This document shows, one piece after another, positions 21,571 to 37,739 of a stretch of DNA of 64,000 nucleotides. The notes beneath the pieces were generated by a model that did not search any database, was not told the origin of the DNA, and saw nothing but the letters and a program-made list of their open reading frames with translations. The DNA lies in assembly GCF_000374125.1 (NCBI RefSeq), contig NZ_KB893627.1, positions 62,001 through 126,000 of the forward strand, written 5' to 3'. The stretch is from Niabella aurantiaca DSM 17617. GTDB taxonomy: Bacteria > Bacteroidota > Bacteroidia > Chitinophagales > Chitinophagaceae. Numbering within the stretch: the stretch's first letter is position 1; each line of letters opens with the position of its first letter. A program made the position numbers and the translations under genes.

Positions 21571-21635
21571 TTCCATATTTCCACGTTTTCAAATTCCGTG
21601 GCTGATAGCTGATGGCTCAATTCTCAACGCTCCAT
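21571..21635. repeat. heptamer array before the PIG-L deacetylase gene
   Basis: In-phase 7-mers such as GCTGATA, GCTGATG, GCTCAAT, TCTCAAC, GCTCCAT (21601-21635), preceded by less regular TTCCATA/TTTCCAC-type units. The array ends 14 bp before the ATG at 21650. Confidence 0.5.
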
Positions 21636-21649
21636 TGTATATTCGTAAG

Positions 21650-24139
21650 ATGAAGCGTATTGTCTGTTCTTTTTTATTGATGTGCTTTTGTGGTACGGGG
21701 ATTGCCCAGGCACCCCGGAGCTGGTCGGGAAGCGAGATCCAGCAGGGCATCCGGAAACTGAATGTACTGGGTTCTGTTCTTTACCTGGCGGCACATCCGG
21801 ATGATGAAAATACACGGCTGATCACCTACCTGGCAAATGAGAAGTGCTACCGCACCGGTTATCTTTCGCTGACGCGCGGAGACGGCGGGCAGAACCTTAT
21901 CGGGGAGGAGCAGGGTATCGAGCTGGGATTGATCCGCACACAGGAGCTGCTTGCTGCGCGGCGTATCGATGGCGGCGAGCAGTTTTTTACCCGCGCATTT
22001 GATTTTGGATTTTCAAAAAATCCGGAAGAAACGTTTGCTATATGGAACCGCCGGCTGGTGTTGAGTGATGTCGTTTGGGTGATCCGGAAATTTCAGCCGG
22101 ATGTGATCATTACCCGATTTCCGGTAACCGGAGAGGGGGGGCACGGTCATCATACGGCGTCGGCGATCCTGGCCAATGAAGCATTCAAAATGGCTGCCGA
22201 TCCCCGGCGATACCCGGAGCAGCTGAACTATGTAAAGCCCTGGCAGGCCAAACGTATTTTATGGAATACATTTAATTTCGGCGGAACGAATACCACAGGA
22301 CCTTCCGAGTTCAAAATAGATGTAGGGGGGTACAATGCTTCCCTGGGGAAGAGTTATGGCGAGATAGCGGCACTCAGCAGAAGCCAGCACAAAAGCCAGG
22401 GGTTTGGCTCTGCCGGAACCCGGGGTGAGAGCTGGGAATATTTTAAAACAACCGGCGGAAGCGCGCCTTCAACTGAGCTGATGGATGGCATTGATCTTAG
22501 CTGGAACCGTGTGGGGCCCGGTGGCAAAGAAATTGAAACTGCCGTTAAAAAGATCGGGGAAGCATTTTCGATCCTCCGTCCGGCGGCATCGGTTCAGCCT
22601 CTGGCAGCATTGTACCGGATGATCGGGCAATTGCCGGATTCATACTGGAAAAACAAAAAAATGGCCGAGGTGCGGGAGCTGATCCGGCAATGTTGCGGTT
22701 TATTTATAAGAGCTACCAGCAGCACGCAGCTATTATTTCCCGGTGATACGGTGGCGTTCACCGTAAATGCGATCAACCGGTCGGCCGGGGCCATAAGGCT
22801 CAAAGCCATCGGTATCGGGGATGAACAGCTGCTGCTGGATCAGCCGCTGCCGGCCAACCGGAACCTGGTGCAGAAGGTAGCGGTACCCATTGCCAAAAAT
22901 ACCCCGTTAACACAGCCCTACTGGCTGCGCGAAAAGATGGCGCCTGCCAATTATACGGTGCATGATCAGCAGGAGATCGGCATCCCGGATGTGGCACCGG
23001 CCTTTACGGCCCGATTTGTCACGGCCATCGAAGGTGTAGACCTGACATTTGATGTACCGGTATTGTATCATTTTACAGACCCGGTGAAAGGTGAAATATA
23101 CCAGCCGGTAATGGTGGCGCCCCGCATCACTGTGCAGCTGTCTCCAAAAATACTGCTGTTCCAAAAGGGAAAAACAGAAGAAAAAAAACTGAAGCTTCAC
23201 TATACCATCAATCAATCCGTTGCCAGTGAGCTGCAGTTTGGACTGGCAGGATTGCCCGGAACGGAAGCGGCGGCGGTTGCAGATACCGGGGCCGGTGTTT
23301 TTATACCCGTGTCCAATAAACAGCTCAGCAATGCTGTAACCACGGTGGAGGGCAATGTATGGGAGCGTACTGCTCCCGCAGAGCGGTACGGGCAGGCGAT
23401 AAAATCGATCCGCTATGATCATATTCCCGATATCAATTACCTCTATACCGATTCGGTAAAGCTGCTGAACATCGATCTGAGAACTGCGGGAAAGAAGATC
23501 GGATACATACCGGGTGCGGGTGATAAAGTACCGGAAGTGCTGACGGCCATGGGCTACCAGGTAGTGCTGCTGGACCGTCAAAAACTGGCAACAACGGAGC
23601 TTTCCGGTTTTGATGCCATTATAAGCGGCGTACGGGCCTATAATATCCACGAATGGCTGAATGATGCCTATGAGCCGTTGATGGCTTATATTCGCAACGG
23701 AGGGAACCTGATCGTTCAATACTGTACAAATAATAACATCGGGCCTGTAAAAGCAAAGATCGGTCCGTATGATTTTTCCATTTCCCGGAGCCGGATTACA
23801 GATGAGAATGCCCCGGTGCGTTTTACAGATCCTTTCATGCGGGTATTGCGCTACCCCAACCAGATCACGGACAAAGATTTTGAAGGCTGGGTGCAGGAGC
23901 GGAGCACTTATCACGCAGCCAACTGGGATGCACACCTGAAACCGGTGCTGGTGATGCGCGATCCCGGAGAGCAGGAAAATGCCGGTGCCCTGATAACCGG
24001 CAAATATGGGAAAGGTTATTTTACTTATTGCGGGATCACATTTTTCAGGCAGCTGCCGGCTGCAGTTCCCGGGGCAATTCGTTTATTTGCAAATATTATT
24101 GCATTAAATTCGCAGACATCAACAAATGTAAATGACTGA
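21650..24139 (+). CDS. PIG-L (LmbE-like) deacetylase family protein
   Basis: Secreted protein of 829 residues. After the signal peptide (MKRIVCSFLLMCFCGTGIAQ) comes a PIG-L/LmbE zinc deacetylase domain in about the first 270 residues: LAAHPDDENTR supplies the AHPDDE metal/catalytic motif and GEGGHGHHTAS the second zinc histidines. The family removes N-acetyl groups from sugar derivatives. The remaining ~550 residues hold Ig-like beta domains and a C-terminal ThuA/glutamine amidotransferase-like segment (GYQVVLLDRQ, YIRNGGNLIVQY). The frame begins with a TTG at 21635, but the ATG at 21650 opens the signal peptide. It overlaps the following micro-ORF by 8 bp. Confidence 0.88.
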   Translation: MKRIVCSFLLMCFCGTGIAQAPRSWSGSEIQQGIRKLNVLGSVLYLAAHPDDENTRLITYLANEKCYRTGYLSLTRGDGGQNLIGEEQGIELGLIRTQELLAARRIDGGEQFFTRAFDFGFSKNPEETFAIWNRRLVLSDVVWVIRKFQPDVIITRFPVTGEGGHGHHTASAILANEAFKMAADPRRYPEQLNYVKPWQAKRILWNTFNFGGTNTTGPSEFKIDVGGYNASLGKSYGEIAALSRSQHKSQGFGSAGTRGESWEYFKTTGGSAPSTELMDGIDLSWNRVGPGGKEIETAVKKIGEAFSILRPAASVQPLAALYRMIGQLPDSYWKNKKMAEVRELIRQCCGLFIRATSSTQLLFPGDTVAFTVNAINRSAGAIRLKAIGIGDEQLLLDQPLPANRNLVQKVAVPIAKNTPLTQPYWLREKMAPANYTVHDQQEIGIPDVAPAFTARFVTAIEGVDLTFDVPVLYHFTDPVKGEIYQPVMVAPRITVQLSPKILLFQKGKTEEKKLKLHYTINQSVASELQFGLAGLPGTEAAAVADTGAGVFIPVSNKQLSNAVTTVEGNVWERTAPAERYGQAIKSIRYDHIPDINYLYTDSVKLLNIDLRTAGKKIGYIPGAGDKVPEVLTAMGYQVVLLDRQKLATTELSGFDAIISGVRAYNIHEWLNDAYEPLMAYIRNGGNLIVQYCTNNNIGPVKAKIGPYDFSISRSRITDENAPVRFTDPFMRVLRYPNQITDKDFEGWVQERSTYHAANWDAHLKPVLVMRDPGEQENAGALITGKYGKGYFTYCGITFFRQLPAAVPGAIRLFANIIALNSQTSTNVND

Positions 24140-24311
24140 TAAGAAAAAGGAGATTATGGGCATCCGCCGGGGTGAAATGGCATTTCTTGTTGCCATTGTG
24201 ATCGGACTGATCGTCGGCACACTTATTAAAAAGATACGGCTGGGTCTGATGCTGGGACTGATCATCGGTTTGGGGATCGTATTTATGAACAGCCTGCGGG
24301 CGAAGCGGTGA
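24132..24311 (+). CDS. small membrane protein, 59 residues
   Basis: A micro-ORF starting inside the last codons of the deacetylase gene (ATGACTGA overlap of 8 bp), which implies translational coupling. It encodes a basic N-terminus (MTDKKKEIMGIRRG) and two hydrophobic helices (EMAFLVAIVIGLIVGTL and LGLMLGLIIGLGIVFM) separated by KKIR, ending in LRAKR. I do not recognise a family. The clean two-helix hairpin with positive flanks and the coupling make it a credible gene. Confidence 0.72.
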   Translation: MTDKKKEIMGIRRGEMAFLVAIVIGLIVGTLIKKIRLGLMLGLIIGLGIVFMNSLRAKR

Positions 24312-24312
24312 G

Positions 24313-24347
24313 GGAGTGAATGGGGAGTAGTGAATGGTGAATAGGGA
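24313..24347. repeat. heptamer array, GTGA-type
   Basis: Five in-phase 7-mers (GGAGTGA, ATGGGGA, GTAGTGA, ATGGTGA, ATAGGGA) directly after the stop codon of the 59-residue ORF. Confidence 0.6.
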
Positions 24348-24383
24348 TCCGGAATTGTACATGATGCAGAAGACATGCCAGGG

Positions 24384-24495
24384 ATCAGGTATCAAATATC
24401 AAGCATCAAATATCAACGATCAGGCATCCAGGGTCTAATGTCTAATATCTAATATCTGACGTCTAACATCTAATCTCCGGCCTCTAATAATCAAT
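24384..24495. repeat. 16-unit heptamer array, ATCAAAT and ATCTAAT types
   Basis: Sixteen uninterrupted 7-bp units. Seven are of ATCAAAT type (ATCAGGT, ATCAAAT, ATCAAGC, and so on) and then most are of RTCTAAT type (GTCTAAT twice, ATCTAAT, ATCTGAC, GTCTAAC, ATCTAAT), ending CTCCGGC, CTCTAAT, AATCAAT. The phase never slips, and the last unit overlaps the start codon of the next micro-ORF. Confidence 0.75.
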
Positions 24496-24631
24496 GCGTA
24501 TGAATAAGCAGATACAGGATGAGGAAAAGGCCCCCCTCTTCGGGTCCTGGACTATATGGTATGTTCTCGTGGTCGTGGTGCTTTTCTTGCTGATCGCCTG
24601 CTTTCACCAGATCACAAAAACCTACTCATGA
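24494..24631 (+). CDS. small single-pass membrane protein upstream of the symporter, 45 residues
   Basis: A micro-ORF of 45 residues (a second ATG at 24500 would give 43). It has an acidic/basic N-terminus (MRMNKQIQDEEKAPLFGS) and one strong membrane helix (TIWYVLVVVVLFLLIACFHQI). Its stop codon overlaps the symporter ATG by one to two bases (ATGA), as in translationally coupled pairs. By position it could be a small accessory subunit of the Na+/solute symporter; that is inference, with no sequence family recognised. Confidence 0.7.
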   Translation: MRMNKQIQDEEKAPLFGSWTIWYVLVVVVLFLLIACFHQITKTYS

Positions 24632-26328
24632 AGCCACTGGACTGGGTTGTTCTGATTGTTACATTGTCCGGTATTATCCTTTACGGGATCTACAAAAGCC
24701 GTACAACGCGCGATCTTGATGGTTATTTCCGTTCCAACAGGAGCATGCCCTGGTACCTGATCCTGTTGAGTATTATGGGCACCCAGGCCAGTGCCATCAC
24801 CTTCCTTGCCGCACCGGGGCAGGCCTATACAGACGGAATGCGCTTTGTTCAGTATTATTTCGGACTGCCGCTGGCCGCTATTGTCATCTGCATTTCTTTT
24901 GTTCCGGTTTTTAGCAGGCTTAAGGTATTTACTGCTTATGAGTACCTCGAGCAGCGGTTCGACCTGAAAACAAGGACCTTCACTTCTTTTTTGTTCCTGC
25001 TGCAACGGGGACTGTCAACCGGGATCAGCATTTATGCTCCTTCCATCATCCTGTCCGTATTGCTGGGATGGAATATTTACCTGACCAACCTGTTCATGGG
25101 CGGGCTCCTGATCATTTATACCGTAACCGGTGGTGCCCGGGCAGTGGCCTATACACAGACCTTCCAGTTTTTGATCATCATGGGCGCCATGTTCGTTGCC
25201 GGATACTATATCGTAAAAGACCTGCCCCCGGGGATCGGCTTCACCGACGCATTACGTGTTGGCGGAAAGTTGGGGAAAATGAATGTGATCACTACGGGCA
25301 TCACCGATAAAGGCTTTGATTGGGGCGACCGGTATAATATCTTTAGCGGGGTGATCGGAGGGTTTTTCCTGCTGCTGTCGTATTTTGGAACCGACCAGTC
25401 GCAGGTAGGCCGTTATCTGACAGCCCGGAATCTTAAAGAAAGCCGTCTCGGCCTGCTGATGAACGGAATCGTGAAGGTGCCCATGCAGTTCCTTATTTTA
25501 CTGATCGGGGTACTGGTCTTTGCCTTTTACCAGTTCAATAAGGCGCCTGCTTTTTTTAACGAGCTGGAGTTAAAGCGGCTGGAGCAATCGGTTTACAGCG
25601 ACTCCCTGCATCAATTGCAATACCAGCTGGAGGGCATTCAGCAGAAAAAGGACGCGGCCCTTGCCCTGTACTCCAGTGAGCGGGCAACAGCCTTCCGGCA
25701 GCTGCAGGTACTTCAGACCGAAACGGAATCGGTCCGGGCCCGGATCAAGGGACTGGTAAAAAAGAACGGGGGCGCCGACAATGATACCAACTATATTTTC
25801 CTGCATTTTGTAGTGGATTATTTACCGGTGGGGTTGGTAGGACTGATCATCGCCATTATTTTTCTTGCCAGCTGGGGAAGTATCGCCGCGGCGCTGAACT
25901 CCCTTGCATCCAGCACCGTGATCGATTTTCATAAACGTTTTTCGCAAAAGGAGCAACCGGCGGAACGGGACTACCTTGTTTCAAAAAGATATACCTTTTT
26001 GTGGGGGATATTCTGTATTGCCGTTGCAATGTTTGTGTCCAATTGGGGAAACAGTTTGATAGAGGTGGTGAATGTATTGGGATCGCTCTTCTACGGAACG
26101 ATCCTCGGGATCTTCCTGGTGGCATTCTACTCAAAACGCATCAGGGGCAATGCGGTGTTCTGGGCGGCGCTGATCGCCGAGGTGATCGTGGTGGTCTTGT
26201 TTTTCCTGAATGAATACGGGATCATTTCACTGGGATTTTTATGGCTGAATGCCGTGGGTGCCCTGCTGGTTTGGGGCATCGGTTACCTGCTGCAGCTGGT
26301 GGCACCGCAAAGGAAATTCCCGGTATAA
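24628..26328 (+). CDS. sodium:solute symporter (SSS family)
   Basis: Inner-membrane Na+-coupled transporter of 566 residues in the SSS family. The start at 24628 (MKPLDWVVLIVTLSGIILYG) is set by the first membrane helix and the ATGA overlap with the preceding micro-ORF. Conserved pieces include LDGYFRSNRSMPWYL, TQASAITFLAAPGQAYTDGM, YEYLEQRFDLKTRT, the GTDQSQVGRYL motif and ASWGSIAAALNSLASSTV. A hydrophilic, charged stretch of about 75 residues (roughly 310-385) rich in Leu/Gln/Glu looks like a coiled coil inserted between two helices. The deacetylase next door suggests uptake of a sugar or amino-sugar derivative. Confidence 0.92.
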   Translation: MKPLDWVVLIVTLSGIILYGIYKSRTTRDLDGYFRSNRSMPWYLILLSIMGTQASAITFLAAPGQAYTDGMRFVQYYFGLPLAAIVICISFVPVFSRLKVFTAYEYLEQRFDLKTRTFTSFLFLLQRGLSTGISIYAPSIILSVLLGWNIYLTNLFMGGLLIIYTVTGGARAVAYTQTFQFLIIMGAMFVAGYYIVKDLPPGIGFTDALRVGGKLGKMNVITTGITDKGFDWGDRYNIFSGVIGGFFLLLSYFGTDQSQVGRYLTARNLKESRLGLLMNGIVKVPMQFLILLIGVLVFAFYQFNKAPAFFNELELKRLEQSVYSDSLHQLQYQLEGIQQKKDAALALYSSERATAFRQLQVLQTETESVRARIKGLVKKNGGADNDTNYIFLHFVVDYLPVGLVGLIIAIIFLASWGSIAAALNSLASSTVIDFHKRFSQKEQPAERDYLVSKRYTFLWGIFCIAVAMFVSNWGNSLIEVVNVLGSLFYGTILGIFLVAFYSKRIRGNAVFWAALIAEVIVVVLFFLNEYGIISLGFLWLNAVGALLVWGIGYLLQLVAPQRKFPV

Positions 26329-26940: not shown

Positions 26941-27043
26941 AGTGATTTTTATTCGAATATAATGTTTTTCTTTTTCCGGAGATGCTTTCTGCAAAAGAAC
27001 ATCAGCACCCCCGGGGTGGGCCCCTGCCCTGGCGCGGGTCCAC

Positions 27044-27672
27044 ATCATATCCGTCAATTTATGGTCCGAACCTATGGTTCTCCTGTTTCCGTTGCAGGCT
27101 TTTACAACGAACCGAGGTTCGTTGTTGATAGACTGGTCGAGGCGATGCCTCTTGCTCTTTGAATAGAAAATACAGAAGGCCGCCGGCCAGATCCCCCTAA
27201 CAGCCGGGGAGTGCCATAGGTACGGTACATTTTCCCGCCCGGGCGCTTATCCGCATCATATCCGTCAATTTATGGTCCGAACCTATGGTTCTCCTGTTTC
27301 CGTTGCAGGTTTTTACAACGAACCGAGGTTCGTTGTTGATAGACTGGTCGAGGCGATGCCTCTTGCCCTTTGAATGGAATACAGAAGGTCGCCGGCCAGA
27401 TCCCCCTAACAGCCGGGGAGTGCCGTAGGTACGGTACATTTTCCCGCCCGGGCGCTTATCCGCATCATATCCGTCAATTTATGGTCCGAACCTATGGTTC
27501 TCCTGTTTCCGTTGCAGGTTTTTACAACGAACCGAGGTTCGTTGTTGATAGACTGGTCGAGGCGATGCCTCTTGCCCTTTGAATGGAATACAGAAGGCCG
27601 CCGGCCAGATCCCCCTAACAGGAGGGGAGTGCCGTAGGTACGGTACATTTTCCTGCCCTGGCGCGTGTCCGC
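27044..27672. repeat. three direct repeats of about 210 bp with internal hairpins
   Basis: Units 27044-27254, 27255-27463 and 27464-27672 (211, 209, 209 bp) are nearly identical. Each contains perfect small palindromes: GAACC-TAT-GGTTC, AACGAACC-GA-GGTTCGTT and GAGGC-GAT-GCCTC. The outer flanks carry matching sequence (CCTGCCCTGGCGCG at 27023 and 27654), so the array is bounded by its own repeat edge. Open frames crossing it encode the same peptide repeatedly but have no gene-like starts. There are no transposase or spacer-like features. It lies between the barrel gene and the ATPase gene. Confidence 0.85.
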
Positions 27673-27692
27673 AGGCGCTATACCATCGAAGA

Positions 27693-37488: not shown

Positions 37489-37641
37489 TTATGACCGGAT
37501 TTTAATGCCAAATATAAGCATCCCAATGGGGGGAATATAAAATATCCAATGTGAAGTATTGAATTTTAAAGTACAGAAGCTCCTCTTACAGAAGGCGCAT
37601 AACCATTGTATTGTTCCAGGCACCGGCTGCTACCTGCCGTC

Positions 37642-37739
37642 TTCTATCATCTAATGCCTATGGTCTATCGTCTAATGTCTATCATCTAATCTCCCTGCTC
37701 TCATTTCCCCATTTTCGAATTTTCAAATTCTCCACCTGA
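37642..37739. repeat. 14-unit heptamer array before the SusC gene
   Basis: In-phase 7-mers: TTCTATC, ATCTAAT, GCCTATG, GTCTATC, GTCTAAT, GTCTATC, ATCTAAT, CTCCCTG, CTCTCAT, TTCCCCA, TTTTCGA, ATTTTCA, AATTCTC, CACCTGA. The first half shares the ATCTAAT unit with the array at 24384-24495. Confidence 0.7.

Follow-up and report, generated by a model that had tools for sequence, protein, structure and literature searches.

How does the gap between two micro-ORFs come to be filled with seven-nucleotide units that differ from one another in sequence and nevertheless keep an exact phase, and what, if anything, do such units do there? This question is raised by one spacer within the window, that is, the whole 64,000-nt stretch of Niabella aurantiaca DSM 17617 DNA analysed here. 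On the forward strand of the window lie, in order, a gene for a PIG-L family deacetylase (positions 21635-24139; 834 aa when read from the listed TTG start; Pfam PF02585, E 4.9e-14), a 59-aa micro-ORF taken from the ORF list (24132-24311; termed here m59), a 45-aa micro-ORF from the same list (24494-24631; termed here m45) and a gene of the sodium/solute symporter family (24628-26328; Pfam PF00474, E 1.8e-33; TIGR00813 above cut-off). Because the end of the PIG-L gene overlaps the start of m59 and the stop of m45 overlaps the start of the symporter gene, the 182-nt spacer between m59 and m45 is the sole gap of a tight cluster. Neither micro-ORF has a Pfam family, and the one NCBIfam match to m59 falls far under its cut-off; m59 is probably a small membrane protein, judging by its hydrophobic sequence, and both micro-ORFs are possibly small partners of the transporter. 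An Rfam search of 24000-24800 returned nothing up to E = 1; a promoter and terminator scan gave two sigma-70-like sites, where 1.3 are expected, and no terminator; and TAnnTTTG, the Bacteroidetes -7 box, was not found in the spacer on either strand. Beyond the symporter gene, at 27039-27673, a 209-bp unit is present in three tandem copies (96% matches).

Two heptad blocks occupy the spacer, both read on the forward strand. The first, of GTGAAT type (24308-24349), has a G-rich sense strand and lies directly 3' of the m59 stop; the second (24383-24494), whose 16 units are first of ATCAAAT and then of RTCTAAT type, has a C-rich sense strand and runs up to the m45 start. This second block is a real heptad array: its lag-7 identity is 66 of 105, where all comparable stretches of the window average 26.6 (sd 5.0), and TC occupies unit positions 3-4 in 15 of its 16 units. 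In the final unit, TAATCAA, the TC register is broken, and one base is shared with the ATG at 24494. A first-pass annotation of the window had described the block accurately, as sixteen in-phase, uninterrupted 7-mers that change type along the way and overlap the next start codon with their last unit. Its count of five GTGA-type units after the m59 stop was slightly generous: the block is there, and at 24315-24342 (AGTGAAT GGGGAGT AGTGAAT GGTGAAT) it consists of three clear units and one deviant unit, with looser units at its edges. CRISPR arrays are made of repeats of ~20-50 nt set apart by unique spacers; here 7-nt units stand head to tail without spacers, and the array is not a CRISPR, as the same annotation had maintained.

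Within the window this periodicity stands out at two places. A second heptad array, of RTCTATC/RTCTAAT type, lies on the forward strand in a different spacer (37619-37710) and reaches a lag-7 identity of 57, and the remaining window does not exceed 47. When the window was scanned at lags 2-30, these two places rose above the threshold, and only at lag 7 and its multiples. Compared with 300 dinucleotide shuffles of itself, the m59-m45 spacer is significant at lag 7 alone among lags 5-9 (p 0.003, the floor of a 300-shuffle test).

Beyond the window, period 7 leads in each of the larger samples scanned. In 464 kb of the same genome there are 12 lag-7 arrays, compared with 0-5 at each remaining lag between 4 and 13; in a 22-genome sample of 1264 kb (this same 464 kb included) there are 39, compared with at most 8 at other lags, apart from the harmonic at lag 14 (26); and in a later 747 kb, mostly from genomes chosen as heptad-rich and some of them sampled earlier, there are 46, compared with at most 8 at the other lags from 4 to 13. 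Lag 7 also remains first (50 versus at most 12) in 80 loci from many phyla after the matched arrays are masked, a set that was picked by one exact pattern (80 of at least 117 stretches) and that shows spread rather than prevalence. The first-pass annotation held that its reading would fail if 7-bp periodicity were not enriched in other intergenic regions of this genome, or were absent from close relatives and poorly supported by the assembly; it is enriched in the other spacers of this genome and in relatives, so that the reading passes this test. By extrapolation from the 12 arrays in 464 kb, the genome would hold roughly 150. By crude gene calls, 34 of the 39 arrays of the 22-genome sample are intergenic, although intergenic DNA makes up only ~11% of that sequence. 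In other words, the window array is of a general kind--of exact period 7, dispersed over spacers and rare in genes.

The units of this kind vary between genomes. Three tandem copies of RTCYARY, with up to 2 mismatches, match 104 times in the window's genome (7 for the backward control), and three copies of RTCYAAY, at the same tolerance, match in 76 of the 117 genomes of a family sample and, exactly, in 15 of the 198 genomes of a phylum sample (5 of 198 for the backward control), both samples including the window's own genome. The notion of a universal heptamer was nonetheless rejected: three copies of RTCYAAY are common in some genomes, whereas the backward control dominates others (0 versus 228 in genome G095). 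Likewise rejected was the notion that the units serve as three-frame stops, since 36 of 39 consensus units have a stop on some strand compared with 32.9 (sd 2.1) after shuffling. The density of arrays varies, reaching 13 per 100 kb in genome G051, which would hold several hundred arrays if this figure applies throughout. A long, nearly perfect GGTATTA array at the very start of a contig (locus L333 of genome G122, positions 1-290) suggests that long heptad arrays are places where assemblies break off. On the chromosome of Candidatus Haliotispira prima, four 8-kb loci (L033, L059, L074, L107) contain at least 12 matches to ATCCAAT arrays, which lie ~1.1-1.5 kb apart with similar flanks and look like a large repeat region.

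The placement of arrays follows a rule, which was noticed in a first set of arrays and then tested on a second. Spacers between divergent genes hold 3 of 78 placed arrays, where 23% would be expected from spacer length (p 5e-6); in the later set they hold 1 of 33, where 29% would be expected (p 3e-4). Both p values are optimistic, since arrays within one spacer are non-independent and gene calls are crude: the spacer counts omit arrays that fall inside a called ORF (14 in the first set and 18 in the second, 32 in total) or at the edge of a locus (12 and 4, 16 in total). Arrays in tandem spacers, moreover, show a strand polarity: the mean of C minus G is -2.58 for those nearer the stop (n = 31) versus +2.78 for those nearer the start (n = 23; p 0.007), and in the later set -7.62 (n = 16) versus +2.08 (n = 12; p 0.009). 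Array-free spacers lean in the same direction more weakly (-0.28 versus +1.11, n = 295; 0.55 versus 2.74, n = 114). When arrays within 50 nt are pooled, leaving aside those with equal G and C counts, the sense strand is G-rich in 18 of 26 arrays near a stop compared with 9 of 28 near a start (Fisher p 0.013). In convergent spacers, 14 arrays are G-rich and 10 C-rich in the sense of the nearest gene. Thus the class is rare between divergent genes and, within tandem spacers, is G-rich in the sense strand after stops and C-rich before starts. Both blocks of the window obey this polarity, G minus C on the sense strand being +19 after the stop and -11 before the start.

The explanation favoured here, and judged probable, is that the feature is an intergenic heptanucleotide array arising from whole-unit slippage, point mutation and copying between loci, and persisting where it does least harm. 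Whole 7-nt units would be duplicated and lost by slippage in steps of 7, 14 or 21; point mutation would decay units, which drift while the phase stays; and blocks of units would be copied between loci of one genome, giving rise to a species-specific heptamer set. Arrays would then survive where least harmful, namely in spacers other than divergent promoter regions, with the strand preference described above. At the window site the array is probably near-neutral.

An unlikely alternative is that the array works as a cis-regulatory leader, governing how m45 and the symporter are translated or how stable their RNA is; it might offer an unstructured landing zone, for instance, or be bound by an RNA-binding protein. 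The array does end at the m45 start, C-rich, G-poor arrays are favoured before starts, and shuffles of the window spacer tend to fold better than the spacer itself (z +1.87, 194 of 200 folding at least as well). As a general rule, however, an unstructured leader had to be rejected, because the mean fold z over 29 arrays of the same genome, partly pattern-selected, is -0.55 (se 0.20) rather than positive; tandem-spacer arrays, moreover, are not preferentially placed near starts, 23 being nearer the start and 31 nearer the stop.

The orthologous gap in relatives bears on this too. The symporter was searched in 39 genomes, the window's own included and one genome per species, and 29 loci were examined by tblastn for the micro-ORFs. 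Counting the window's own locus, m59 was found in 17, m45 in 20 and the two together, beside PIG-L and symporter genes, in 16. Six of the 15 relatives have a compact, repeat-free m59-m45 junction of 7-21 nt; two of these, L203 and L204, come from assemblies in which the symporter frame is interrupted. The remaining 10 of the 16 loci, the window's included, have an expanded gap of about 108-830 nt, these lengths being approximate because in several relatives the alignment of m45 begins inside the ORF. Half of the expanded gaps have significant period 7 (the window, L178, L180, L181 and L189; p 0.003 each), with low p at further lags in three of them (lag 8 in L189, 0.003; lag 9 in L180, 0.007; lag 6 in L181, 0.033). 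By eye, the gap of L178 has RTCTARY and then ATCAAAT heptads, the opposite order to that in the window; that of L180 has GTGAAT heptads within three copies of a ~200-bp repeat; that of L181 has GTTTCAR heptads; and that of L189, which belongs to another genus, has GTGAAT/ATTCACC heptads. In L182 GTGAAT units are scattered and lag 7 is non-significant (p 0.19), and in the four other expanded gaps (L179, L183, L184 and L185) heptads were not found. Stretches of GTGAAT like those of the first block also lie 3' of m59 in L180 and L182 (by eye). The three repeat copies of L180 (genome G005) are bordered by GTGAAT heptads, and by eye L182 and L178 resemble this repeat in single or decayed form, with inverted ends; the L180 repeat may be a small dispersed element.

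The compact, array-free junctions and the mixed heptad types of the expanded gaps thus indicate no conserved local function. Judged by these sequences, the array is dispensable for the cluster, in a spacer that readily acquires and swaps heptads. The first-pass annotation had placed the array between two coupled micro-ORFs; nothing was found for an array function in that coupling, six relatives having both ORFs without any array, and these six, together with the four whose expanded gaps lack heptads, likewise argue against the leader.

A second alternative, which appears rather improbable, is that the array is a row of binding sites with a 7-nt step for a DNA- or RNA-binding protein, selection acting on anchors such as TC. 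The near-constant TC of the second block, the heptamers common to loci within genomes and a common profile over 39 arrays, weak though it is (3.06 bits compared with 2.62, sd 0.10, in 60 column permutations), are consistent with such sites. Unit types, however, change within arrays and between species, and units do not resemble one another as fixed sites should. Their mean identity at one to six units apart is 0.715, 0.708, 0.651, 0.626, 0.608 and 0.585, as computed from those of 68 arrays (some of them pattern-selected) that have 7 or more units, the first two values being inflated by the finding and extension of arrays and the others not directly so. Such a drop in similarity with distance is a mark of local copying. 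(Duplicate arrays with identical letters were dropped from this analysis and from that of inverted partners below. Of 20 pattern-selected loci from the window's genome, 17 were used, the other three being copies of L258; they enter the unit-identity, inverted-partner and folding analyses and stand outside the spacer statistics.) Transitions make up 445 of 890 differences between units two apart, compared with 31% in random pairs, a share that in our judgement is ordinary for normal mutation and unremarkable.

In a neutral simulation of whole-unit duplication and deletion with point mutation, its parameters chosen by us, identity over the same distances falls from 0.766 to 0.669 and from 0.657 to 0.505 at the two lowest mutation rates, with a variance-to-mean ratio of mismatches per position of 1.59 and 1.04 at divergences of 0.193 and 0.301. 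The simulation therefore brackets the observed curve, and degenerate, in-phase units are close to what slippage plus mutation would put out. In 16 long arrays (the second block of the window, truncated by the extension rule, is outside this group) the ratio is 1.70 at a divergence of 0.244. This unevenness exceeds both bracketing values, an excess that remains and that somewhat favours binding sites, although much of the heterogeneity among positions is reproduced without selection. The statement of the first-pass annotation that slippage does not explain such an array holds only in part: slippage of unchanged units, without mutation, is insufficient, but whole-unit slippage with mutation gives simulated curves on either side of the observed one. 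From this model we infer slippage as the generator of the arrays. At one place in the window's genome (C1:425 kb) a 14-bp higher-order unit is repeated.

Within-genome heptamer sharing and the polarity go beyond simple local slippage, and a second process or selection is needed; nor does the simulation account for the avoidance of divergent spacers. Consensus units, with rotation and strand ignored, are identical in 5.0% of 737 within-genome pairs compared with 0.67% of 8629 between-genome pairs (letter-shuffled control, 0.3% and 0.15%), the test comprising 138 arrays with genome G051 contributing more pairs than any other. At C23:179-180 kb of the window's genome, a run of five identical units plus a sixth that differs by one change has an inverted copy 1.1 kb away, and we infer copying of units between loci. 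At L249 and L250 the flanks are shared as well as the array, and larger dispersed repeats with arrays inside them may account for some of the sharing. Species-specific sets of heptamers could also be the work of a dedicated generator--a template-copying polymerase or a mobile heptad cassette that writes arrays into spacers--and the same might be said of genome G079, where the 21-mer ATCTAACATCGTACATCTAAC occurs in 13 of 15 loci taken along one chromosome (L267-L281) with outer flanks that, by eye, look unrelated. We regard this as very unlikely; ordinary slippage plus ectopic copying, as in the preferred explanation, would yield identical data.

In genome G051 (L287-L316) many arrays are paired in inverted orientation, with hairpin-like cores, TGCGAGACCAGAGGTCTCGCA and GTCGCCAGAGGCGAC among them, between arms of GTTGGAT and ATCCAAC (by eye); in L308 the two arms are identical along 31 nt, a variant unit included. 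An inverted partner within 250 bp accompanies 23 of 31 arrays in this genome, compared with 10 of 62 same-genome controls, and 44 of 186 in all genomes sampled, compared with 38 of 360 controls; in the window's genome it accompanies 0 of 37 (control 4 of 74), the inverted copy at C23 lying too far away for this test. Hairpin pairing is one local form, and not a general one. That the blocks of the window are hairpin or cruciform arms acting as a terminator or insulator is, in spite of the pairs and cores just described, scarcely credible and was rejected for this locus, where inverted partners are missing genome-wide from the arrays counted, the two blocks differ in type, the spacer folds worse than its shuffles and the terminator scan found no site.

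The preferred explanation places the feature in a known but poorly understood class, the intergenic heptanucleotide repeats, which is under-described; word searches of the openly licensed literature found no account of heptad arrays in Chitinophagaceae. The first-pass annotation had likened the array to short tandem heptamers of filamentous cyanobacteria, and STRR is the name for the heptanucleotide repeats of Calothrix. Such short tandem heptamers of Calothrix are mentioned by Rehm et al. 2015 (PMC4692102), and the broader resemblance to intergenic heptamers in other phyla is borne out, in form and placement, by the sections of the literature cited here.

Rehm et al. describe heptameric GGGAATC and GGGGA(C/T)T repeats in Xanthomonas and Nostoc that are mostly intergenic, dispersed and variable in unit number, and that form G-quadruplexes in vitro, with four units preferred and stable locations (PMC4692102). 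The GGGAATC repeats of Xanthomonas lie mostly between aligned ORFs and rarely between divergent ones, are G-rich in the sense strand within 50 bp of stops and G-rich in the antisense strand upstream of ORFs, and form inverted pairs, 70 in one species and 75 in another (PMC4692102). As far as those sections go, the arrays studied here are alike in being heptameric, mostly intergenic, dispersed, variable in unit number and rare between divergent genes, with the same polarity at stops and starts and, in some genomes, inverted pairs. Unlike them, they have more varied units, in sets that differ between genomes, and four G3 tracts on one strand in only 1 of 159 arrays (four G2 tracts in 35). The blocks of the window were rejected as quadruplex heptamers of this type, the first having three G3 tracts on the forward strand and the second one, with none on the reverse strand of either, which is below four. 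Since the same placement rule holds with so few such arrays, the rule is seemingly independent of classic quadruplexes. The site studied here turns over, unlike those stable locations; Xanthomonas repeat loci are reported to be more stably placed than controls (PMC4692102), which does not agree with simple turnover.

TAACTGA direct repeats, described by MacGregor 2015 in Beggiatoaceae, Cyanobacteria and five Bacteroidetes, are intergenic and often near start codons (PMC4679880), and an RNA-binding-protein site, of the kind considered above for the leader, was proposed for them. In Gramella and Aequorivita other heptamers occur beside TAACTGA; in the main genome of that study heptamers related to this one defined unit are rarely repeated (PMC4679880). 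The resemblance, so far as that account describes the repeats, is that of intergenic heptamer direct repeats in scattered phyla, Bacteroidetes among them; the difference is that the units of the window are degenerate and of several types, and a TAACTGA repeat was rejected because neither strand of 24308-24494 contains that heptamer. Mrazek and colleagues 2007, as cited in PMC4692102 and PMC4679880, found heptamers over-represented among the longer SSRs of many bacteria, an excess tied there to the idea of slippage linked to polymerase contacts. Heptamer-derived tandem repeats, for example (GATAGRA)n of Chloroflexus aurantiacus, are also among the largest bacterial satellite families, as described from a set of representative species, and the sections of PMC6749651 cited here do not describe a placement rule or polarity for such satellites.

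A broader proposal is possible and is held only tentatively: that the heptamer arrays of unrelated phyla are one class by virtue of their 7-nt step, their avoidance of divergent spacers and their polarity rather than their unit sequence, and that they share a process, tied to replication or transcription and working in steps of 7 nt, which makes arrays and copies units between loci, G-quadruplexes and protein binding being by-products in some lineages and not the cause. The placement rule of the Xanthomonas quadruplex heptamers holds also in Chitinophagaceae, nearly without classic quadruplex arrays. The rule is thereby loosened from the structure that had been proposed for it, which suggests that the arrays share a generating process or that strand composition is under selection, and array-rich genomes such as G051 make the bacterial preference for a 7-nt step experimentally accessible.
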